Shown here: piece by piece, positions 43,914 through 54,083 of the stretch
Numbering within the stretch: the first letter of the stretch is position 1
Layout: every line of letters begins with the position of its first letter
Assembly: GCF_902832845.1 (NCBI RefSeq)
Contig: NZ_CADFDB010000005.1
Location: 124,001 to 188,000 of the forward strand
Direction: 5' to 3'
DNA length: 64,000 nucleotides
Source of the DNA: Burkholderia metallica
GTDB lineage: Bacteria > Pseudomonadota > Gammaproteobacteria > Burkholderiales > Burkholderiaceae
Notes under the pieces: model-generated
What the model saw: only the letters and a program-made list of their open reading frames with translations
What the model was told of the DNA's origin: nothing
The model's database searches: none
Made by a program: the position numbers and the translations under genes

Positions 43914-44213
43914 TCAGTGTCGAGCGCCCGCGTCGGCGGTCAGCGCATGCGAGCAGTCGGCGCGGTACTCGGCGGCGAGCCGCTGTTTCGCACCGTCGAG
44001 ATCGTCGGGATAGTACGGGCTCGCGTGTGCCGGCTCGTAGCCGACCTGTTCGAGTTCGCTCAGCTCGCGCACGAGGTCCGCACGCGTGACGTCGTGGCCG
44101 GTGTGGACGAACGGATACGCGTTGCATTGCTGCGGGGTCAGGTGAGGTGCCGCGAGTGCGGCGCCGCTCGCGCATGCGAGCAGCATGCAGGCGACGGTAG
44201 TCGACAGTTTCAT
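43914..44213 (-). CDS. Small secreted DUF4148 protein, copy 1
   Basis: A 99-residue exported protein: signal peptide MKLSTTVACMLLACASGAALA, then a short domain with LTPQQC, DLVRELSELEQVGYEPA and YYPDDLDGAKQRL, which fits the DUF4148 family common in Burkholderia. Two Cys residues could pair. Its function is unknown. It is transcribed away from the response regulator gene, with two copies of the TGAA-N6-TTCA element in the shared upstream region. Confidence 0.85.
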   Translation of the reverse strand: MKLSTTVACMLLACASGAALAAPHLTPQQCNAYPFVHTGHDVTRADLVRELSELEQVGYEPAHASPYYPDDLDGAKQRLAAEYRADCSHALTADAGARH

Positions 44214-44294
44214 CCGGTAGCTCCTGGTTTCGCGGCCCGATGCCGCATGACGTCAGCGTAGGCGGTGCGCGCGACGGCGCGGGCGACGCACGGA

Positions 44295-44308
44295 TGAAAC
44301 ATGTTTCA
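44295..44308. promoter_or_regulatory. TGAA-N6-TTCA site 1 (perfect palindrome)
   Basis: TGAAACATGTTTCA is a perfect 14-bp palindrome, extended to GATGAAACATGTTTCA (44293-44308). It lies 81 bp upstream of the first DUF4148 ATG and about 120 bp upstream of the response regulator. Confidence 0.6.
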
Positions 44309-44329
44309 CCCGTACGCGGTGGCGCCTGA

Positions 44330-44343
44330 TGAAGCAATTTTCA
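44330..44343. promoter_or_regulatory. TGAA-N6-TTCA site 2
   Basis: TGAAGCAATTTTCA, flanked as GATGAA...TTCATG, is 35 bp from site 1 and 86 bp upstream of the response regulator ATG. The same GATGAAG/TTCATGAA flanks occur at site 3. Confidence 0.55.
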
Positions 44344-44429
44344 TGAAAGGCAGGACGGCAACCGGCTCGTCTACGATAGTTGCGGGCGCATCGCATGCGC
44401 CCGTCATGACGTTCATTGCGAGGGCAACG

Positions 44430-45104
44430 ATGCGAGTACTCACGGTCGAGGACGATGCGGTGACCGCGAACGAAATCGTCGGCGAACTGGTCGCACGCGG
44501 GTTCGAGGTCGACTGGATCGACAACGGCCGCGAAGGGATGATGCGCGCGATGAGCGCATCGTACGACGCGATCACGCTCGACCGGATGCTACCGGGCGTG
44601 GATGGCCTCGCGATCGTCACCGCGATGCGTACGGTCGGTATCGATACGCCGGTGCTGATGCTGAGCGCACTCGGCGACGTGGATGAGCGTATCCGCGGGC
44701 TGCGCGCGGGCGGTGACGATTACCTGACGAAACCGTTCGATTCGGGCGAACTGAGCGCGCGCATCGAAGTGCTGCTGCGCCGCCGGCAGGCATCGGACGT
44801 GCCCCAGCAGACGCTGTTGAAAGTCGGGGCGCTCGAGCTCGACCTCATTTCGCGCTGCGCGCGGCGCGGAGGCGACGAGATTCAGCTGTTGCCGACCGAG
44901 TTCCGCGTGCTCGAATTCATGATGCGCAACGCGGGGCAGACGATCACGCGCACGATGCTGTTCGAGGCCGTGTGGGGCTATCACTTCGATCCGGGCACCA
45001 ACCTGATCGACGTCCACATGGGCCGGTTGCGCAGGAAGATCGATCCGCCGGGCGCGGACCCGATGATCCAGACGGTGCGCGGCTCGGGCTACATGCTCGC
45101 ATGA
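44430..45104 (+). CDS. OmpR-family response regulator
   Basis: A 224-residue two-component response regulator with a complete receiver: acidic residues E7, D8 and D9, phospho-acceptor D51 in TLDRMLPG, S79 and K101 in LTKPF. A winged-helix OmpR/PhoB DNA-binding domain follows, ending in the RRKID and RGSGYM stretches. GAGGGCAAC precedes ATG 44430. It is coupled to the histidine kinase (ATGA overlap) and probably binds the TGAA-N6-TTCA elements (inference). Confidence 0.94.
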   Translation: MRVLTVEDDAVTANEIVGELVARGFEVDWIDNGREGMMRAMSASYDAITLDRMLPGVDGLAIVTAMRTVGIDTPVLMLSALGDVDERIRGLRAGGDDYLTKPFDSGELSARIEVLLRRRQASDVPQQTLLKVGALELDLISRCARRGGDEIQLLPTEFRVLEFMMRNAGQTITRTMLFEAVWGYHFDPGTNLIDVHMGRLRRKIDPPGADPMIQTVRGSGYMLA

Positions 45105-45115
45105 CGGAGGCCCGG

Positions 45116-46507
45116 ATGGATGCGGCTCGCGCGGCGAACTTCACGCGCCGCTGGCACACGACGACGTTTCGCTGGCTGTGCGCGTATGCGGCGATCTTCT
45201 CGGTGTCGCTGCTGCTGCTCGCGGGCGTGATCAGCGTGGCCGCGACGCACACGATGGCGCGCGATACCGACGAAGTGCTCGCATGGCAACTGATCTATTT
45301 CGATTCGATTCCCGACGCCGAACTGCCGCTCGCGATCCACCGGCGGCTCGAGCACGAGCACATGCATACCAGTTTCTACGGGCTGTTCGATGCGAACGGG
45401 CGCCGTGTGGCCGGGGATATCGCGACACCGCCCGCGCTGCGCGCGGATCGCAACGGACGCACGTTGAACCGCACGCTTGCGCCGCTCGACGGCCAGCCCG
45501 CACCGATCACGCGTGCGATGGCCGTACGCCGCGACAACGGGATGACGCTGGTCGTCGCGCGCGACCTGTCGCATTTCATCCAGATTCGCGACGTCGCGAT
45601 CCGCGGGCTCGTGATCGGCGGCGTGATGATCCTGATCGCGGGCATCGCGGGCGGCAGCATGCTCGGCATGCGGCAGATGCGCCGTGTCGCCGCGATCCGG
45701 CGCGTCACGCGGCAGATCGCGGAAGGCGATCTCGGCAAGCGGCTGCCGGTCGGACGCTACGACGAACTCGATCTGCTCGCGCATCTCGTGAACCACATGC
45801 TCGACGAAGTCGAGCGGCTGATGGGGGAGGTGCGCCATACCTGCGACGGTATCGCGCACGACCTGCGCACGCCGCTCGCACGCGTGCACACGATGCTGGC
45901 CCGGCTCGCGGAGCAGCCGTTTTGCGCGGACGACCCGGCGTCGTCGGCACTGCTCGCGTCGGCGCGCGACGAGACCGACCGGCTGCTCGAACGCTTTCGC
46001 GCGATGCTGCGGATCTCCGAGATCGGCACGCTGAGCCGGCGCGGCGGCTTTGCCGCCGTCGACGTCGCGGCATTGCTGCACGACGTATGCGAGCTGTACG
46101 AACCGCTGGCCGAAGCCGTGGACGTGTCGTTCGAACTCGACGTGGCATCGGTCGAGCGCATTCACGGCGATCGCGCGTTGCTGTTCGAGGCCTTCAGCAA
46201 TCTCGCGGACAACGCAATCAAGTTCACGCCACCGGGCGGCCGCGTGCGCGTTGCGCTCGATGCGGCGCCGGGCGGGCCGCTCGTCCGGTTTGAAGACACA
46301 GGGCCCGGGATCCCGCCCGGCGAACGCGACGCGGTGCTCGAGCGCTTCTATCGAGGCGAGCGCACGCGCCATGTGAGCGGCTCGGGGCTGGGGCTGAGCA
46401 TCGTGTCGGCCGTGATGCGCGTGCACGGCTTCGCGTTGCGGATCGGCGATGCGCCGCTGGCCGGGGCGGCGATCACGGTCGAATGCTGGCCGCGCTCGCT
46501 CGCGTGA
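45116..46507 (+). CDS. Sensor histidine kinase with His-rich periplasmic segment
   Basis: A 463-residue membrane kinase partner of the preceding regulator. Membrane helix 1 is at about residues 20-41. The periplasmic part holds a His cluster at residues 75, 80, 82 and 84 (RRLEHEHMHTS). Helix 2 (GGVMILIAGIAGG) is followed by a HAMP domain, the H-box with His248 in GIAHDLRTPL, the N-box DNAIKF and the G-box GSGLGLSIV. ATG 45116 is chosen because GGAGG lies five bases before it; ATG 45101 overlaps the regulator stop and is the alternative. The His cluster hints at metal sensing, but that is inference. Confidence 0.92.
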   Translation: MDAARAANFTRRWHTTTFRWLCAYAAIFSVSLLLLAGVISVAATHTMARDTDEVLAWQLIYFDSIPDAELPLAIHRRLEHEHMHTSFYGLFDANGRRVAGDIATPPALRADRNGRTLNRTLAPLDGQPAPITRAMAVRRDNGMTLVVARDLSHFIQIRDVAIRGLVIGGVMILIAGIAGGSMLGMRQMRRVAAIRRVTRQIAEGDLGKRLPVGRYDELDLLAHLVNHMLDEVERLMGEVRHTCDGIAHDLRTPLARVHTMLARLAEQPFCADDPASSALLASARDETDRLLERFRAMLRISEIGTLSRRGGFAAVDVAALLHDVCELYEPLAEAVDVSFELDVASVERIHGDRALLFEAFSNLADNAIKFTPPGGRVRVALDAAPGGPLVRFEDTGPGIPPGERDAVLERFYRGERTRHVSGSGLGLSIVSAVMRVHGFALRIGDAPLAGAAITVECWPRSLA

Positions 46508-46526
46508 CGACGTCGGAGACCGGTCG

Positions 46527-47192
46527 ATGCGCATCCTGCTGATTGCGTCGCCGAATCCGGAAGCGGCGCGGCTCGACAAGGCATTTCGCGAGAGCATGCA
46601 TGGTGTCGAGCGTGTCGACGGATGGCGCGACGGCTGCTTCGTGGCGACGCAGGACCGGTTCGACGCGATCGTGATCGTTGCGCCCGACCCGGCTGCGGGC
46701 CCGGCTATCCTCGATGCATTGCCGCGACTTGCCGCATCGGCCGCGGGCGCGACGATCGCCGCGATCGTTGCCGGCACGACGCCCGCGCAGCGCGCACGGA
46801 TGCTGCAGGCCGGTTGCGACGTGTGTCTTGCCCATCCCTGTTCGTTCGTGGAACTGCACGAGCGGTTGCGCGCGCTGTGGCGCCGCTCGGGCGTCATCGC
46901 GATACGCGAGCCGGTCCGGCTCGACGCGGCTACGCGCGCACTCGAAGAGCGTGGCCGGAAGCTGGCGCTCAGCACACGGGAATTCCGGCTCGTCGAATGC
47001 CTGCTGCGCGAAGCGGGGCGACCGGTGGGGCGCGATGCCGTGCTGCGTTATGCGTGGGGCGATGCCGACGTCGAACCCGAGACGGTCAATGCGCTGGTCG
47101 TGCGGCTGCGGCGCAAGCTGGCCGCGCACGCTTTTTCCGCGCGTATCGAAACGGTTGCGCGATTCGGATTCAGGTTCGACGCGGGCGAGTGA
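46527..47192 (+). CDS. Degenerate response regulator lacking phosphorylation site
   Basis: A 221-residue protein with receiver and OmpR-type winged-helix domains. Numbered like its upstream neighbour, the acidic pocket E7-D8-D9 is replaced by Ala-Ser-Pro, the phospho-acceptor position 51 is Val, and the conserved Lys aligns with His103 (AHPCSF). It cannot be phosphorylated in the usual way. The DNA-binding domain keeps the LSTREFRLVECLL and VNALVVRLRRKL patterns. It starts 20 bp after the kinase and is probably in the same operon. A phosphorylation-independent partner or antagonist of the first regulator is likely. Confidence 0.88.
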   Translation: MRILLIASPNPEAARLDKAFRESMHGVERVDGWRDGCFVATQDRFDAIVIVAPDPAAGPAILDALPRLAASAAGATIAAIVAGTTPAQRARMLQAGCDVCLAHPCSFVELHERLRALWRRSGVIAIREPVRLDAATRALEERGRKLALSTREFRLVECLLREAGRPVGRDAVLRYAWGDADVEPETVNALVVRLRRKLAAHAFSARIETVARFGFRFDAGE

Positions 47193-47265
47193 CGACGCGG
47201 TATGGCGCCGTGCTCGCGGATGTCACGCACGCCGCGCGTCGCGCGGCATGCGCGAATGCGTGCGG

Positions 47266-47526
47266 TCAGTGCGAATAGAGTTCGCGGTCGAGCTGCGCGA
47301 GCTGGCCGTCGCGTTCGGCCTCGACGAGTTCGCGATAGACCTGTGCGCGAGTCAGCGGCGTTGCCGCCCGCGCATTCCATGCCGGTTGTGCCGACGACGA
47401 CGGTGCGGCCGCAGCCGCGGCGAGCGTCTGCGTCGCAGTCGCGATGTCGTGCTGCGTGGCGCCGGCCCGGCCGGGCAGCGCGACGCAGAGGGCGCAGAGC
47501 AGGGTAGCGAACATCAGTGTCTTCAT
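47266..47526 (-). CDS. Small secreted DUF4148 protein, copy 2
   Basis: An 86-residue exported protein with signal peptide MKTLMFATLLCALCVALPGRAGA, an Ala-rich linker and the DUF4148-like ending LTRAQVYRELVEAERDGQL. It matches copy 1 in domain plan rather than sequence detail. Convergent with the degenerate regulator; site 3 of the shared element lies about 100 bp upstream. Function unknown. Confidence 0.82.
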   Translation of the reverse strand: MKTLMFATLLCALCVALPGRAGATQHDIATATQTLAAAAAAPSSSAQPAWNARAATPLTRAQVYRELVEAERDGQLAQLDRELYSH

Positions 47527-47624
47527 GGCGTGCTCCTTTCAGGTGACGGTGGCGGGCGCCGCGATGGCGATGCCGGCAGGATCGACGTTATCGGGCGCGC
47601 CGGTTCGGGCGGCCGGCACGCCGA

Positions 47625-47638
47625 TGAAGAATCGTTCA
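47625..47638. promoter_or_regulatory. TGAA-N6-TTCA site 3
   Basis: TGAAGAATCGTTCA, flanked as GATGAA...TTCATGAA, lies 98 bp upstream of the second DUF4148 ATG, overlapping the end of the outer-membrane factor gene. Its flanks match those of site 2. Confidence 0.5.
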
Positions 47639-49051
47639 TGAACCCGCGTCGTGCCAGCCGCCGCCGAGTGCGCGTACGAGCCCGACGGATGCCTGCAGGC
47701 GCCGCGCGTCGACGTCGAGCGACGCGATCCGCGTATCGAGTTCGGTCGTCTGCGCGGTGACCACGTCGAGATAGCTGACCGCGCCGTCGCGATAGCGCGA
47801 CATCGCCAGCGCGAGCGAATGCCGCGCCGCGGCGCGCGCCGCGTCGTCCTGGTCCGATTCGTCGCCGAGGCGGTGCAACTGCGCCAGCTCGTCCTCGACT
47901 TCGCGGAACGCCTGCAGCACCACCGCGCGGTAGCGCGCGCCCTGTTCGTCGAACTGCGCACGCGCGTTGCGTACGCCGGCGGCGCGCCGGCCCCCGTCGA
48001 ACAGCGTCGTCGCGAGACGCGGTCCGAGCGACCAGATCTCGTTTGGCGCGGCGAGCCACGGCGAAAACGTGTCGCTCTGGAATCCGGCGTCGAGGCCGAG
48101 CGACAGGTCGGGAAAGTACGCGGCGCGTGCGACGCCGATCCGCGCGTTCGCGGCCGCGACGCGGCGCTCGGCCGCGGCGACGTCCGGCCGGCGCTCGAGC
48201 AGCGTCGACGCGAGCCCCGTCGGAATCGACGGCACGCCCGGCAGCGCAGCCACGGGCGGCAGCGAGAACGTCGACGCCGATTCGCCCACGAGTGCCGCGA
48301 TCGCGTGCTCGTCGAGCGCGCGACGCGCGGCGATGTCGGACGCGCGTGCCCGGGCGAGCGCGAGCTGTGTTTGCGCACGCGATACGTCGAGCCCCGATGC
48401 GAGACCGCCGCGATGGCGGCTGACGGTGAGTTGCCACGCACGGCGGTACGTGTCGATCGTCTGCGCGAGCGTGTCCGCTTCACGGTCGAGTCCTGCGAGG
48501 TCGAAGTAGGTGCTGGCGACGCCGGCCTGCAGGCTGAGCCGGACCGACGCGAGCGCGTCGTCGGCTGCCTGCGCATCGTCGCGACCCGCCGCGACCGTGT
48601 TGCGGACCTTGCCCCACAGATCGACGTCGTAGCCGAATCCCGCGTCGAGCGTGTTCGATTCGTAGACGTCGGGCTGGCCGCTGCCGCGCAACGGCCGGCG
48701 CGCGGACTGACGGTCGCGGTTCGTTTCGGCACCGATGCCGAGGGTCGGCAACAACGCGGCATGCGCGCCGTCGAACAGCGCGACGGCTTCGTCGTGCCTC
48801 GCGACGGCGGCGGCCAGGTCGGGATTCGCGCGGGCGACGAGCGGTTCGAGCCGATCGAGTGTCGCGTCGCCGTATACGCGCCACCAGCCGTCGCGCGGCA
48901 GGCGATCGGCCGGCGCGGCATCGACCCATGCGCCCGTTTCGCGAAACGCGGCCGGCACGGGAACGGCCGGCGCACGATAGGTCGGCGCCAACGAGCAGCC
49001 GGCGAGCAGCGCTACGCTGCCCAGCCACACGGCAAGCAGTCGGTCAGCCAT
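47636..49051 (-). CDS. RND efflux outer-membrane lipoprotein (NodT family)
   Basis: A 471-residue TolC-like outer-membrane factor of the NodT/OprM family. Lipobox LLAGC with Cys19 after a short signal peptide; two repeats of long helices follow (for example ASDIAARRALDEHAI). It forms the outer-membrane tunnel of the tripartite pump. ATG 49051, with GGAG seven bases before it, is preferred over GTG 49057. The start overlaps the adaptor gene by eight bases. Confidence 0.92.
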   Translation of the reverse strand: MADRLLAVWLGSVALLAGCSLAPTYRAPAVPVPAAFRETGAWVDAAPADRLPRDGWWRVYGDATLDRLEPLVARANPDLAAAVARHDEAVALFDGAHAALLPTLGIGAETNRDRQSARRPLRGSGQPDVYESNTLDAGFGYDVDLWGKVRNTVAAGRDDAQAADDALASVRLSLQAGVASTYFDLAGLDREADTLAQTIDTYRRAWQLTVSRHRGGLASGLDVSRAQTQLALARARASDIAARRALDEHAIAALVGESASTFSLPPVAALPGVPSIPTGLASTLLERRPDVAAAERRVAAANARIGVARAAYFPDLSLGLDAGFQSDTFSPWLAAPNEIWSLGPRLATTLFDGGRRAAGVRNARAQFDEQGARYRAVVLQAFREVEDELAQLHRLGDESDQDDAARAAARHSLALAMSRYRDGAVSYLDVVTAQTTELDTRIASLDVDARRLQASVGLVRALGGGWHDAGS

Positions 49052-50219
49052 GCGCACGCTCCGTCGGCGCGGCGCCGGCGATACGCACGGGGTCGCCGTC
49101 CGCGAGCGAATCGGGCGGATTGTCGATCACGCGGTCGGCCGCCGCGAGCCCCGACGCGAGCACCACGCGCGTGCCGAGATCGGTCGCGATCGCCACGTTG
49201 CGCAGCCGTGCATGCCCGGTTGCGTCGAGCACGGCGACCTGCAACCCGTCGTGACGGAAGATCAGCGTGCTCGCCGGAATCGACAGCGCGTGCGCGGCGC
49301 CCGGCATCGCGATGCGCACCTGCGCGTATTCGCCCGGGAACAGCGTGCCTGCCGGGTTGGCGATCGAGAATTGCGCGAGCAGCGTGCCGGACGCCGGATC
49401 GATCGACTGGGCGGAATCCGCGAGCGTGGCGTCGAACGTGATGCCGGGGCGCTCTGGCACGGTCAGCGCGACATGCATGCCCGCGTGGATCGCGGCCGCG
49501 TCGTCTTGCGGGACGTGCACGTACAGCCGCAGCCGTCGCGCGTCCGACACGGTGAAGAGCTCGGCGCCGTTGCCGCTGCCCGCGTCGATCAGCGCGCCGA
49601 CATCGGTCTTGCGGGCCGTCACGATGCCGTCGAACGGCGCGGTGAGCCGCTTGAACGATTCGAGCGCTTCGAGTCGCCGGACGTTGGCGGTGCTCGCCGC
49701 GACGGCCGCGCGTTTCGCATCGAGGTCGCTGCGTTTCTCGTCGGCTTCCTGCCGCGAGACGGAATCCTGCGCGAGCATCTCGGCCCAGCGGGCAGCGGTG
49801 ACGGCCGCGAGCCGTTCGTTCGCGCTCGCGCTCTGCAGGTCGGCGCGTGCCTGCTGCAACTGCTGGTCGAGATCGGGTGTGTCGATCGACGCGAGCAACT
49901 GGCCGGCCTTCACGTGCGCGCCGATGTCCGCGTACCACGCGTGCAGGTAGCCCGGCACGCGCGCGTAGATCGGCGCGTCGACGTACGCGTCGAGCCGGCC
50001 GGGCAGCACCAGCGCGTCGGCCGCGGCCGGCTGCGGCGCCACCGTCGCGACGGTCGGGATCGCCTGTTGCGCGGTCCACGCGGCGACCGCGTGCGCATCG
50101 TGCAGGCGTGCGACGAGGCCGGCCGCCGCGACCGCAAGCGCGGCGACGGCGCCCGCGATCGCGAGCGGTTTCAGATAGCGCGGCGTGCCGGGGGGGCGGA
50201 CTTCGAATTCAGTGGACAT
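49044..50219 (-). CDS. RND efflux periplasmic adaptor subunit
   Basis: A 391-residue HlyD/AcrA-type membrane-fusion protein. A single N-terminal membrane helix (AIAGAVAALAVAAAGLVA) anchors it; the lipoyl, hairpin and beta-barrel domains follow (PIYARVPGYLHAWYADIG, APFDGIVTARKTDVGALI). It links permease and outer-membrane factor. Its start overlaps the permease stop by 11 bp. Confidence 0.92.
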   Translation of the reverse strand: MSTEFEVRPPGTPRYLKPLAIAGAVAALAVAAAGLVARLHDAHAVAAWTAQQAIPTVATVAPQPAAADALVLPGRLDAYVDAPIYARVPGYLHAWYADIGAHVKAGQLLASIDTPDLDQQLQQARADLQSASANERLAAVTAARWAEMLAQDSVSRQEADEKRSDLDAKRAAVAASTANVRRLEALESFKRLTAPFDGIVTARKTDVGALIDAGSGNGAELFTVSDARRLRLYVHVPQDDAAAIHAGMHVALTVPERPGITFDATLADSAQSIDPASGTLLAQFSIANPAGTLFPGEYAQVRIAMPGAAHALSIPASTLIFRHDGLQVAVLDATGHARLRNVAIATDLGTRVVLASGLAAADRVIDNPPDSLADGDPVRIAGAAPTERAHG

Positions 50220-53200
50220 GCTGTTCTCCCGGGGTGAGGGACAGGGATTCGGAACGGGGCGCGCGATCGCGCCGGTGGACGAGGCTGAACACGACGGGCA
50301 CGAACACCAGTGTCGCGACGGTGGCGCACAGCAGGCCGCCGATGACCGCGCGGCCGAGCGGCGCGTTCTGCTCTCCGCCGTCGCCGAGGCCGAGCGCCAT
50401 CGGCGCCATGCCGATGATCATCGCGAGCGCGGTCATCATCACGGGCCGAAACCGCGTGAAGCCGGCCTCGAGCGCGGCGACGGCCGCGTCGGCGGTATGC
50501 GCGAGCCGTTCGCGCGCGAAGGTCACGACGAGGATGCTGTTCGCGGTTGCGACGCCCATGCACAGGATCGCGCCCGTCAAGGCGGGCACCGACAGCGGCG
50601 TGCGCGTGACGAACAGCATCCAGACGATGCCGGCGAGCGCCGCGGGCAGGCCGCTCACGATCACGAATGCGTCGCGCCACGAATGGAAGTTGACGACGAT
50701 CAGCAGGTAGATCAGCAGGACCGCGCCGGCGAGGCCCGCGAGCAGGCCGCCGAACGCGCTGTTCATCGTCTGCACCTGACCGCGCAGGGTCACGCGCGAT
50801 CCCTTGGGCAAGCCGGCCGCGTTCGCGCGCAGCACGCGTTCGATGTCGGCGCTGACCGCCCCGAGATCGCGATCCTGCGTCGTCGCGAAGATGTCGTACA
50901 GCGGGGCGATGTCGTAGTGCGACACGACCGCGTCGGTCTGGCCGCGCACGATTGTCGCGAGCCCGCCGAGCAGTTGCGGCGTGCCCGAGCGGCCCGTGAC
51001 GGGCAACGCGCGCAGGTCCGACAGCGACGTCATCCGGTACTGGGGCGTCTGCGCGACGATCGGATACGACACGCCGTTGTGCGGATCGAGCCAGTAGGTC
51101 GGCGACACCTGGCTCGTGCCGGACAGGCTGGCGACCACGGCATTCGTGACGTCCTGCTCGGTGATGCCGAGTTGCGCGGCGCGCGTGCGGTCGACCGACA
51201 CCGTGAACTGCGGATAGGTCGACGCCTGCTGCACGCGCGCGTCCGCGACGCCCGGCACGCTGCGGATGCGCCGCAGCAGGGCGGCGGCATACGCGCGGTT
51301 GGCGGCACGGTCGGGGCCCGTCACCTGCACGTCGATCGGCGCGGGCGCGCCGAAGTTGAGGATCTGGCTCACGATGTCGGCGGGCAGGAACGAGAACGTC
51401 ACGCCGGGAAACGCGCGCGGCAGTTGCGTACGCAACTGCCTGACATAGTCGGCCGTGGGCGCGTGATCGCCCGTGAGCGACACGAGGATGTCGCCGTCCT
51501 GCGGGCCGATCGTGCCGCTGTTGCTGTACGTCAGGTTGATCCCGCTGTTCGGCAGGCCCATGTTGTCGACGATGCTCGCGACTGCGCGCGGCGGCACGAC
51601 GTCGCGCACCGTCTGCTCGACGTGGTCGAACAGCGCGGCCGTTTCCTCGATGCGCGTGCCGATCGGTGCGCGCACGTGGATCGCGATTTCGCCCGCGTCG
51701 ACCGACGGGAAGAAATTGCGGCCGAGCCATGGCACCAGCGCGAACGACACCGCGACCGCGGCAACGAACAGCGTGACGAAGCGCGCGCGATGCACGAGCG
51801 CGAGGCCGAGCACGGCGCGGTAGCCGGCGCGCAGTGCCGCGAAGCGGCGCTCGAACCCGTGCTGGAACGCGACGAGCGGATGGCGCGCGCGCGGCGGCGG
51901 GAACGGCGCACCGTGCGGCGCGAGCGCGGCCGCCGGATGCGCGGCATGCGGCTTCAACAGGTAGCGGGCCATCGTCGGCACGAACGTGCGCGACAGCACG
52001 AACGACGCGATCATCGCGAAGATCACGGCTTCGGCCATCGGGACGAACAGGAAGCGGGCCACGCCGTCGAGCAGCAGCATCGGCACGAACACGATGCAGA
52101 TGCACAGCAGCGACACGAACGCCGGCGCGACGATCTGCGACGCGCCGTCGAGGATCGCATCGCGCACGTTCTTGCCCTGTTCGAGATGCCAGTTCACGTT
52201 CTCGATCGTGACGGTGGCATCGTCGACGAGAATGCCGACCGCGAGCGCGAGGCCGCCGAGCGTCATCACGTTGAGCGTCTCGCCCACGGCCGCGAGCGCC
52301 GCGATCGCGGCCAGCACGGCGAGCGGAATGGACGCGGCGATGATCAGCGTCGAGCGCCAGCTGCCGAGGAACAGCAGGATCATCGCCGACGTGAGTGCGG
52401 CGGCGATCAGGCCTTCGCGCGCCACGCCGCTCACGGCGCCCTTGACGAACACCGACTGGTCGCCCATCACGACGAGCCTGAGCGACGGCGGCAGCGTCGC
52501 CTCGATGCGCGGCAACTGCGCCTTGACGCCTGCGATGATGTCGAGCGTCGATGCCGAGCCGCTTTTCAGCACGCTCATCAGCACCGCGCGACGGCTGTCG
52601 ACGCGCACGATGTTGCCCTGAGGAGGAAAGCCGTCGCGGACGTGCGCGACGTCGCGCATGAAGATCACCGCGCCGTTCACGGTCCGGATCGGCAGCGCAT
52701 TGATCTGGTCGATGGTCAGCGGGCTGTCGTTGAGCCGGATGTTGTATTCGTAGCCGCCGATCTTCTGCGTGCCGGCCGGAATGATCTGGTTCTGCTGCGC
52801 GAGCGCGGTGGCGACGTCCTGTGCGGACAGCCCCTTGGCCTGCAGCGCCTGCGGATCGAGGTCGATCTGCACCTGGCGCACCTTGCCGCCGTACGGCGAC
52901 GGAATCGCGACCCCCGCGACGGACAGCAACTGCGGCCGGATCACGTTGGTGGCGTAGTCGCCGAGCTGCTGCTCGTCGAGCGTGTCGCTCGTCAGCGCCA
53001 GTTGCAGCACGGGCACGGTCGACGCGTTGTAGTTGAGGATCTGCGGCGGCGTGGTGCCCGGCGGCATCTGCTTGAGCACGGTCTGCGAGATCGACGTGAC
53101 TTGCGCGGTCGCGGTGCGGATGTCGACGCTCGGCTGGAAGAAGATCTTGACGATCCCGAAGCTGCGAAACGACTGCGACTCGATGTGCGCGACGTCGTTG

Positions 53201-53427
53201 ACCGTCGTGCCGAGCGTGCGTTCGTAGTAGGTGACGATGCGCCCGGCCATGTCGGCCGGTTGCAGGCCCGCGTAATTCCACACGACGCTGATGACCGGAA
53301 TCCGGATGTCGGGGAAGATGTCGGTCGGCGTGCGCAGCGCCGCGAGCGGCCCCGCGATCAGGATCAGCAGCGCGAGGACGATGAAGGTGTAGGGGCGCGC
53401 GAGCGCGAGTCGGACGAGTTTCAGCAT
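50209..53427 (-). CDS. RND efflux permease (HAE1-like)
   Basis: A 1072-residue proton-driven RND pump of the AcrB/MexB superfamily. The proton-relay pair Asp-Asp is in GILVDDATVTIEN in TM4. The large periplasmic loops and 12 membrane segments are complete. DD rather than the single-Asp pattern of many metal pumps suggests a drug or organic-compound exporter, but the exact substrate cannot be told. The permease is encoded first in the operon (permease, adaptor, outer-membrane factor), not the usual adaptor-first order. Site 4 lies 121 bp upstream. Confidence 0.93.
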   Translation of the reverse strand: MLKLVRLALARPYTFIVLALLILIAGPLAALRTPTDIFPDIRIPVISVVWNYAGLQPADMAGRIVTYYERTLGTTVNDVAHIESQSFRSFGIVKIFFQPSVDIRTATAQVTSISQTVLKQMPPGTTPPQILNYNASTVPVLQLALTSDTLDEQQLGDYATNVIRPQLLSVAGVAIPSPYGGKVRQVQIDLDPQALQAKGLSAQDVATALAQQNQIIPAGTQKIGGYEYNIRLNDSPLTIDQINALPIRTVNGAVIFMRDVAHVRDGFPPQGNIVRVDSRRAVLMSVLKSGSASTLDIIAGVKAQLPRIEATLPPSLRLVVMGDQSVFVKGAVSGVAREGLIAAALTSAMILLFLGSWRSTLIIAASIPLAVLAAIAALAAVGETLNVMTLGGLALAVGILVDDATVTIENVNWHLEQGKNVRDAILDGASQIVAPAFVSLLCICIVFVPMLLLDGVARFLFVPMAEAVIFAMIASFVLSRTFVPTMARYLLKPHAAHPAAALAPHGAPFPPPRARHPLVAFQHGFERRFAALRAGYRAVLGLALVHRARFVTLFVAAVAVSFALVPWLGRNFFPSVDAGEIAIHVRAPIGTRIEETAALFDHVEQTVRDVVPPRAVASIVDNMGLPNSGINLTYSNSGTIGPQDGDILVSLTGDHAPTADYVRQLRTQLPRAFPGVTFSFLPADIVSQILNFGAPAPIDVQVTGPDRAANRAYAAALLRRIRSVPGVADARVQQASTYPQFTVSVDRTRAAQLGITEQDVTNAVVASLSGTSQVSPTYWLDPHNGVSYPIVAQTPQYRMTSLSDLRALPVTGRSGTPQLLGGLATIVRGQTDAVVSHYDIAPLYDIFATTQDRDLGAVSADIERVLRANAAGLPKGSRVTLRGQVQTMNSAFGGLLAGLAGAVLLIYLLIVVNFHSWRDAFVIVSGLPAALAGIVWMLFVTRTPLSVPALTGAILCMGVATANSILVVTFARERLAHTADAAVAALEAGFTRFRPVMMTALAMIIGMAPMALGLGDGGEQNAPLGRAVIGGLLCATVATLVFVPVVFSLVHRRDRAPRSESLSLTPGEQHVH

Positions 53428-53547
53428 CGGCGAGGTCTCCGCCGGCGCGGGGCGCCGGCCTGTCAGCGAGTTGCCGACGCGCGGCGGGTGCCCGGTTCGG
53501 CTCGCGCAGTGTGCGTGGCGGCGCTTAACGCGGGGCGCGGGCCAGGA

Positions 53548-53561
53548 TGAAAGATGTTTTA
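53548..53561. promoter_or_regulatory. TGAA-N6-TTCA-like site 4 (one mismatch)
   Basis: TGAAAGATGTTTTA, 121 bp upstream of the RND permease ATG. The 16-bp version GATGAAAGATGTTTTA matches site 1 at 14 of 16 positions. Confidence 0.5.
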
Positions 53562-53723
53562 GGAACCGGTGGCGAGGGGCAGGGCGGACGCCGATTGTTA
53601 CAAGACGTTAGCGCGGGCTCATCGTTGCGATGAGACGCATCAGTTCTTACAAACTTGAAATATGCGGACGCGGTGCTTGCCGTTATAGTCGAATCACACA
53701 TGACACAACCAGAAGAGGAATTC

Positions 53724-54083
53724 ATGAAGACTTTGCGTGTTGCCTCGCTCTTGACCGGTATGACGGCCTTGCTCGTGTCGGGCGCAGCAATGGCGGGAGT
53801 CAATGTCGGGATCAATCTCGGCGTTCCGGCACCGGTCTACGTCGCGCCTGCGCCCGTGTATGCGCCGCCGCCCCCGCCGCCGGTCGTCTATCAGCCTGCG
53901 CCGGTCTACGCGCCGGCCCCTGTCTACGCACCGGCGCCGGCCATCGTGATCGGCTGGCACGGCGACCGCTACTGGGACGGCCGTCGCTACTGGGGCCGCG
54001 ACGAGTGGTACCGCCATCACGGCCGCGGCTGGGGCGGCGATCGCGGCCACTGGGATCACGGCCGCCACAACGGCTGGCGCTGA
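53724..54083 (+). CDS. Small secreted Pro/Tyr- and Gly/His-rich protein
   Basis: A 119-residue exported protein: signal peptide to about residue 27, then a stretch of repeated VYAPAP-like units (about residues 35-80), then a Trp/Arg/His/Gly-rich end with YWDGRRYWGRDEW and GRGWGGDRGHW. Such proteins are often cell-surface or envelope-stress proteins, but no function is assigned. ATG 53724 follows AGAGGAA; an earlier frame start at 53655 lacks a site. Confidence 0.78.
   Translation: MKTLRVASLLTGMTALLVSGAAMAGVNVGINLGVPAPVYVAPAPVYAPPPPPPVVYQPAPVYAPAPVYAPAPAIVIGWHGDRYWDGRRYWGRDEWYRHHGRGWGGDRGHWDHGRHNGWR

Follow-up and report, generated by a model that had tools for sequence, protein, structure and literature searches.

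The CusR box of Escherichia coli is an inverted repeat, with a half-site sequence different from that of the box described here, and prsQ2, one of the targets of AgrR in Cupriavidus metallidurans, encodes a small exported protein. According to the portions of the AgrR/AgrS study drawn on here, AgrR reads a 16-bp imperfect inverted repeat (consensus ATKACANNNNTGTMAT, 6-4-6), is positively autoregulated, occupies a type II activator position at most promoters and has prsQ2 and the metal-resistance genes cop and czc among its targets; the same pages give inverted repeats for CopR of Pseudomonas syringae and for PcoR (PMC7380067). IrlRS and IrlR2S2 of Burkholderia pseudomallei have a DUF4148 gene on their downstream side, for which no interaction was known; the available part of that work says that the closeness "may be coincidental" (PMC7549894). 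In the accessible part of a 2026 paper on IrlS2-IrlR2, DUF4148 is named only in the reference list (PMC13037405). Here we describe a locus of Burkholderia metallica in which a two-component system, two DUF4148 genes and a resistance-nodulation-division (RND) efflux pump share a palindromic element, TGAA-N6-TTCA, in their promoters. It lies within a 64-kb stretch of contig NZ_CADFDB010000005.1 (positions 124,001 to 188,000), called the window from here on, and all coordinates given below for the locus are those of the window.

Four promoters with a common inverted repeat

The first-pass annotation of the stretch had proposed four sites as operators of the local OmpR-type regulator, and we consider it very probable that they are operators of the response regulator (RR) encoded at 44430-45104, a reading which phylogenetic footprinting, paralogous systems and co-occurrence strongly support at the level of sequence. 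From left to right the locus comprises cyoD, a first DUF4148 gene (DUF4148-1, reverse strand), RR and its sensor histidine kinase (HK, both forward), a second regulator-like gene (RR2), a second DUF4148 gene (DUF4148-2, reverse) and the outer-membrane channel (OEP), periplasmic adaptor (MFP) and RND permease of the pump (reverse). Boxes are found in the promoters of DUF4148-1, RR, DUF4148-2 and the permease. Box 1, TGAAACATGTTTCA (44295..44308, reverse strand), belongs to the DUF4148-1 promoter and box 2, TGAAGCAATTTTCA (44330..44343, forward strand), to that of RR, where it would serve autoregulation; box 3 reads TGAACGATTCTTCA toward DUF4148-2 (47625..47638, reverse strand) and box 4 reads TAAAACATCTTTCA toward the permease (53548..53561, reverse strand). 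These 14-mers stand where they had been reported, three of them fitting TGAA-N6-TTCA exactly and site 4 with a single mismatch, and the identity of 14 out of 16 positions between sites 1 and 4 is correct. The distance to the start codons had been put at about 80-120 bp, which is roughly right and slightly too narrow, the boxes starting at 95, 100, 112 and 134 bp. A palindromic operator had also been suggested, and the geometry supports it: the box is a 6-4-6 inverted repeat, ATGAAA-N4-TTTCAT-like, as is the AgrR box, with ATGAAA-CATG-TTTCAT found exactly at box 1 of one relative (L039).

The exact pattern occurs three times in the window, against a mean of 0.32 in 100 dinucleotide shuffles, none of which reached three. 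In the whole genome (7.55 Mb) it is present at 37 places, of which three fall inside 3.34 kb at this locus, while the reversed pattern used as control gave 6. The clustering of the three exact sites has a Poisson P of ~6e-7, a post hoc value, the pattern having been picked from these very sites. The longer form GATGAA-N6-TTCA has 10 places in the genome, three of them here. When up to three mismatches are allowed, an 18-bp pattern built from boxes 1 and 4 matches box 1, box 4 (with three mismatches) and six other places (all with three mismatches), compared to one match for its reversed control, and misses boxes 2 and 3. With one mismatch permitted, the window has 12 matches vs 8.1 expected, and 14 of 100 shuffles reach 12, so that site 4 by itself is not significant by count; its case rests on conservation.

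Conservation in close relatives

RR was searched in 61 genomes of the genus, of which 35 gave matches at E <=1e-60. Twenty-two of these (own genome included) have a copy of about 95% identity or more (the lowest 94.6% by tblastn), six have a best copy of 74-77% and seven only one of 55-56%. In the first 22, all Burkholderia-like, the arms of sites 1 and 2 are almost fixed (15 of 16 columns invariant) and the spacers drift (3 of 12). Box 2 is exact in all 22, with invariant TGAA and TTCA arms and one invariant column out of six in the spacer. The arms of box 1 are exact in 19, and in the other three genomes (L049, L051, and L056) the right arm reads TTTTA, a change shared with site 4. DUF4148-2 was found in 16 of the 22 genomes, always with box 3 (16/16), and an intact permease in 15, always with box 4 (15/15), which reads TAAAACATCTTTCA in 13 (TAAA) and TGAAACATCTTTCA in two (TGAA); the L049 contig stops short of the pump. 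Boxes 1 and 2 are retained (box 1 of L056 in its TTTTA form) at six loci where neither DUF4148-2 nor an intact pump was found (L039, L040, L052, L055, L056, and L059). One of them, L059 (locus 1 of genome G017), retains a permease remnant consisting of the first 81 codons, beside which box 4 reads TCAGACATCTTTCA, with one change at the A/G position and another at a position that does not vary among the other 15. The promoter of L059 also differs elsewhere, so these changes hint at lost selection and do not prove it.

Over all the promoter alignments, 30 of the 32 columns in the arms do not vary, compared to 227 of the 508 that lie outside boxes (binomial P ~5e-9, with columns that are not independent and a background that holds other conserved promoter elements as well as the neighbouring box in the shared DUF4148-1/RR region). 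Box 3 is the best-conserved of the 113 16-bp windows of its promoter when these are ranked by plain identity; start-codon and further promoter stretches are likewise conserved in this ranking. The alignments demonstrate one ATGAAA-N4-TTTCAT-like inverted repeat, kept by purifying selection, in each putative target promoter.

Paralogous clusters and co-occurrence

Eleven further loci (L060-L070) carry an RR that is 74-77% identical to that of the window (a broken copy in L070) together with DUF4148, HK, RR2, a second DUF4148 and OEP-MFP-RND genes, with the following gaps: DUF4148-1 was undetected in the stretch of L060, the pump and kinase of L061 are fragmented and L070 is without HK. Within their 200,009 bases there are 39 exact boxes, where 0.98 would be expected at the rate of the own genome, and none in the reversed control. 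All but one of them (38/39, the remaining one, L062:2570, being unassigned) are placed at most 800 bp upstream of a DUF4148, RR or RND start, as extrapolated from tblastn, and none falls within those genes. The same paralogous gene set, with three exact boxes, appears in Burkholderia cenocepacia CMCC(B)23006 (NZ_CP091013.1).

Two features of these clusters deserve a separate mention. An extra RR (~60% identical) is located directly upstream of the permease gene in L060-L070, giving two regulators of this type per cluster. In L070 (locus 2 of G017) the regulator has a stop, the kinase was not found and exact boxes are still there.

The arrangement of boxes 1 and 2, defined as two TGAA-N6-TTCA elements 15-30 bp apart (double box), was found in 25 of the 61 genus genomes, with no match for the reversed control. 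It is present in 19/22 genomes with the orthologue, 3/6 with only a 74-77% copy, 3/7 with only a 55-56% copy and 0/26 without an RR match, that is, in 22/28 genomes having an RR of at least 74% identity vs 3/33 of the others. A permease of at least 78% identity (with no more than 12 candidates scored per genome) follows the same split, 26/28 vs 0/33, the two exceptions being G031, where the contig is incomplete, and G014, where the pump is fragmented. Fisher values for this co-occurrence overstate independence because the genomes of one genus are related. Across these genomes the boxes accompany the regulator and its putative targets. Outside the genus, the double pattern is found in 6 of 135 genomes (reversed control 2/135), matches that we have taken as background because none of the six loci, in the 1.7-3.1 kb examined, has an RR, DUF4148 or pump homologue.

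Promoter anatomy and direction of control

Candidate -10 elements were sought as the hexamer most like TATAAT at offsets 20-44 after each box, read toward the gene, a search run with no control. The DUF4148-1 promoter has TACGCT (44255..44260, reverse strand) 34 bp after box 1, best in 22/22 genomes and tied with offset 42 in 21. For RR the candidate is TACGAT/GATAGT (44372..44380, forward strand), 28 or 31 bp after box 2, offset 28 being best in 22/22 and tied with 31 in 18. DUF4148-2 has GATAAC at offset 32, best in 16/16, overlapping TAACGT at offset 34, both present in the window (47585..47592, reverse strand), and the RND operon has CACACT (53508..53513, reverse strand), a weak TATAAT match at the same offset, 34 bp after box 4, in 15/15. 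The alignments establish, for every putative target, a box at a fixed distance from a conserved hexamer nearer the gene, a constancy which is partly that of ungapped conservation. The paralogous promoters are similarly spaced by eye, e.g., TATGCT 34 bp after the proximal DUF4148-2 box.

If these hexamers are -10 elements, the box centres would be at about -47 to -53, a position comparable to that of the AgrR footprints. With boxes so placed, upstream of the candidate -10s, activation would be the likelier direction. It is rather unlikely that the boxes are indeed operators of the local RR and that it represses, regulates in opposite directions or acts unphosphorylated; sequence alone cannot give the direction of regulation, and AgrR, in the part of its study used here, binds and activates in its unphosphorylated form, but the boxes do not cover the candidate -10s and their position agrees with AgrR footprints of -65 to -35 and -63 to -32 (PMC7380067). 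In the mechanism that we favour, a dimer of RR, set by the sensor kinase, would bind two half-sites head to head and one helical turn apart and would act as a class II-type activator, some 50 bp ahead of the transcription start. Its proposed targets would be its own operon (RR, HK, and RR2), both DUF4148 genes and the RND-MFP-OEP operon, and the outcome would be a compact autoregulated envelope-stress or efflux regulon.

Which protein reads the box

RR2 is the other DNA-binding protein of the locus, and it might bind the box alone or as an RR:RR2 heterodimer, with RR acting elsewhere or only jointly. We give this a low probability. RR2 is found in every locus aligned (all 22 orthologous and 11 paralogous ones) and retains its winged-helix domain despite having lost the phospho-acceptor (the 33 aligned copies have V, A, L or T in place of this Asp, that of the window having V), and the asymmetry of box 4, which is reproducible, fits such a reader. 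However, in Caballeronia glathei (L105), whose RR is 72% identical, the region between DUF4148 and RR holds an exact box, and RR2 was undetected over 20.7 kb, which points to RR and not RR2. Neither DUF4148 nor RR2 was detected by tblastn in the stretches searched of five Pseudomonas loci (L106-L110, RR 67-68%; 16-21 kb for RR2 in these and L105), and in four of the five a box with one arm mismatch or none precedes the RR match by 80-88 bp. The Pseudomonas boxes are suggestive only, since one-mismatch matches are not rare in AT-rich intergenic DNA. The box, moreover, is common to the window and paralogous systems, between which RR2 is 43-46% identical and RR 74-77%. The recognition-helix stretch TNLIDVH[MI]GRLR is identical in the 22 RR orthologues, in C. 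glathei and in the five Pseudomonas RRs.

Another regulator of the cell, be it a different CopR/IrlR-type RR or an unrelated palindrome-binding factor, might use the boxes and have the local two-component genes merely as targets. The genome is indeed rich in RR relatives (82 loose candidates), and a related TGAA-N6-GTCA-like box is found elsewhere. We nevertheless regard this as very unlikely, given the 26 genus genomes lacking both an RR match and the double box, the share of GATGAA-N6-TTCA places falling at this locus, and the fact that boxes 1 and 2 travel with RR even where the pump was not found. Finally, functionless chance occurrence of AT-rich tetrads in intergenic DNA, which the post hoc reading of the pattern and a one-mismatch window count not above that of shuffles could suggest, is almost certainly wrong in view of boxes 1 and 2, whose arms hardly vary across 22 genomes while their spacers drift, and of the 39 boxes of the paralogous loci.

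Several observations weigh against RR as reader of all four boxes. Box 4 is an imperfect palindrome, yet conserved, and the spacers of boxes 3 and 4 are invariant at 5/6 and 6/6 columns, so that arms and spacer are alike there. Plain 16-bp identity places boxes 1 and 2 only 24th and 55th of 204 and box 4 17th of 188, and all these genomes come from one genus and are hence non-independent. As for the -10 candidates, they are weak, a second offset scores equally well for one of them, and the RR promoter is spaced differently. No box within one mismatch was seen near RR in L106 (Pseudomonas, RR 68%) or L111 (RR 59%), and Paraburkholderia solitsugae (L104, RR 78%) has no exact box, just one-mismatch sites at -266 and -213. 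In G009, G015, and G024 (L100, L099, and L092) the double pattern sits in a seemingly unrelated promoter. We have rejected these last double sites as RR targets: they lie in a divergent promoter with many TGAA/TTCA repeats, between two exported-protein genes that are alike across the three loci, and by eye it was judged unrelated.

The conserved, phosphorylation-blind RR2 poses a clear mechanistic question and is the least explained part of the system. CpxP is known as an envelope feedback partner of CpxA. A wider circuit can be imagined in which RR and RR2 would share or compete for the boxes, the DUF4148 proteins would be envelope feedback partners of the kinase, and the pump would be one arm of a dedicated Burkholderia envelope-homeostasis circuit with DUF4148 accessory factors, a picture that we hold to be rather unlikely as a whole.

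Other DUF4148 loci and rejected sites

There are 30 DUF4148 matches in the own genome. In eight of these loci, two of them in the window, tblastn with the window proteins finds an RR, HK or pump homologue within ~1.5 kb; in the other 22 it does not. A second cluster (L244, G000:C2:396000-415500) contains an RND pump of 59% identity, an OmpR-type RR (43%) with its kinase, and DUF4148 on both sides; the genome-wide pattern scan found no exact TGAA-N6-TTCA in it.

A fifth target was considered at G000:C1:850935 (L002), where GATGAAGGAATGTTCA lies upstream of the gene for an 82-aa exported protein (DUF4148 only at E = 4). This was the single own-genome match outside the locus tested for conservation, and it is not conserved. 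The gene is present in 44 of the 61 genomes, and among the 30 whose loci were aligned only two (own and G017) have the exact pattern. The usual form at that position is close to TGAANATCCTGTCAT, whether or not a genome has the RR orthologue (L184-L213; own site L002:1160-1520). The site has been rejected as an RR target because the exact pattern is not conserved and the usual form is independent of RR presence. The conserved TGAANATCCTGTCAT-like box may be an operator of another CopR-type regulator. Five of the seven GATGAA-N6-TTCA places elsewhere in the genome were examined for gene context (C14 and C15 left out): besides L002, one overlaps a start codon (L004), one lies inside a predicted frame (L003), one inside a 489-aa frame (L008) and one outside the frames found (L001).

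Genes of the locus

DUF4148-1 (43914..44213, reverse strand, 99 aa) and DUF4148-2 (47266..47526, reverse strand, 86 aa) score 48.7 and 35.6 bits with PF13663, against a cut-off of 27, and both have a signal-peptide-like N terminus, as read by eye from sequence. RR (44430..45104, forward strand), the proposed box binder, is of the OmpR/PhoB type, with Response_reg and Trans_reg_C domains above cut-offs (PF00072, 78.6 vs 30.2 bits; PF00486, 91.7 vs 26.2 bits) and with the receiver motifs VEDD, ITLD, and LTKPF (phospho-acceptor Asp, acidic pocket, switch Lys) in all 22 orthologues. Its best NCBIfam model is cztR_silR_copR (TIGR01387, CopR/CusR/CzcR), at 203.7 bits under the 279.2 cut-off. The nearest solved structure, PrrA (1ys6), is uninformative on the box question. 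The cognate sensor kinase HK (45101..46507, forward strand; HAMP, HisKA, and HATPase_c) has an ATGA overlap with RR and is followed by RR2 (46527..47192, forward strand), an OmpR-type DNA-binding protein with a degenerate receiver, for which Pfam gives Trans_reg_C only.

The pump is made up of a NodT-type outer-membrane channel (47636..49057, reverse strand; TIGR01845, 377.9 bits vs a cut-off of 210), the adaptor (49044..50219, reverse strand; TIGR01730, 206.8 vs 94.9 bits) and the permease (50209..53427, reverse strand; PF00873, 678.8 vs 28 bits), a candidate RND-16 orthologue. The permease is under the cut-offs of the NCBIfam RND subfamily models, including that of the heavy-metal family TIGR00914 (CusA/CzcA, HME), with 417.2 bits against 701.45. 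Beyond box 4, at 53590-53680, there are two more conserved blocks, TTACAAGACGTTAGC and TTACAAACTTGAAATATG (forward strand), upstream of a small PXPV-like gene at 53727 which is divergent from the pump; they are possibly sites of another regulator.

RND-16 of B. cenocepacia consists of BCAL2134 (permease), BCAL2135 (adaptor), and BCAL2136 (outer-membrane protein) (PMC8300704; PMC2891726, in the parts consulted), and cyoD is BCAL2141 in the portion used of a further study (PMC5749847). The window pump is probably the RND-16 orthologue, since it adjoins cyoD and the numbering BCAL2134-2136 runs in the gene order of the window, an assignment by synteny only. The label cyoD itself comes from the position of the gene in a cyo-like run and from its own sequence, without a model search. 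The RND-16 region differs in that four locus tags separate BCAL2136 from cyoD, compared to five genes in the window, of which two are very small.

Comparison with described systems

The grouping of DUF4148 genes and an efflux pump in one regulon had been thought a new arrangement. What is new is the box and its conservation; the arrangement itself recurs as a paralogous system in the genus and, with a different regulator, in the own genome, and an earlier study already notes DUF4148 genes next to irlRS-type two-component systems (PMC7549894). The novelty is modest, the system belonging to the palindrome-binding CopR/AgrR-like circuits. No report of this regulon was found in the openly licensed PMC literature on DUF4148 (alone or with two-component systems and efflux) or on BCAL2133-2143. 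The locus offers an operator sequence that can be tested, and with it a candidate regulator, for an RND pump of Burkholderia. If this pump is RND-16, its entry in the consulted section of a 2021 review gives "uncertain function" and the regulator as "N.A." (PMC8300704).

Like CopR, PcoR, and CusR, this system joins an inverted repeat to an OmpR-type RR; unlike them, its RR and its pump both score under the cut-offs of heavy-metal models. With AgrR it shares an OmpR-family RR together with the 6-4-6 inverted-repeat box, but the half-site is TGAA-type here (ATGAAA-N4-TTTCAT-like) and ATKACA-type there, going by the AgrR text available (PMC7380067). It further differs from AgrR/AgrS in its pseudo-receiver third gene, and silver resistance is a trait of the AgrR system. 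Like IrlRS and IrlR2S2, the locus has two-component genes beside DUF4148; unlike them, it has a common conserved box, which argues at the sequence level for direct two-component control of two DUF4148 proteins, a link left as possibly coincidental in the portion of the IrlRS work cited above (PMC7549894).

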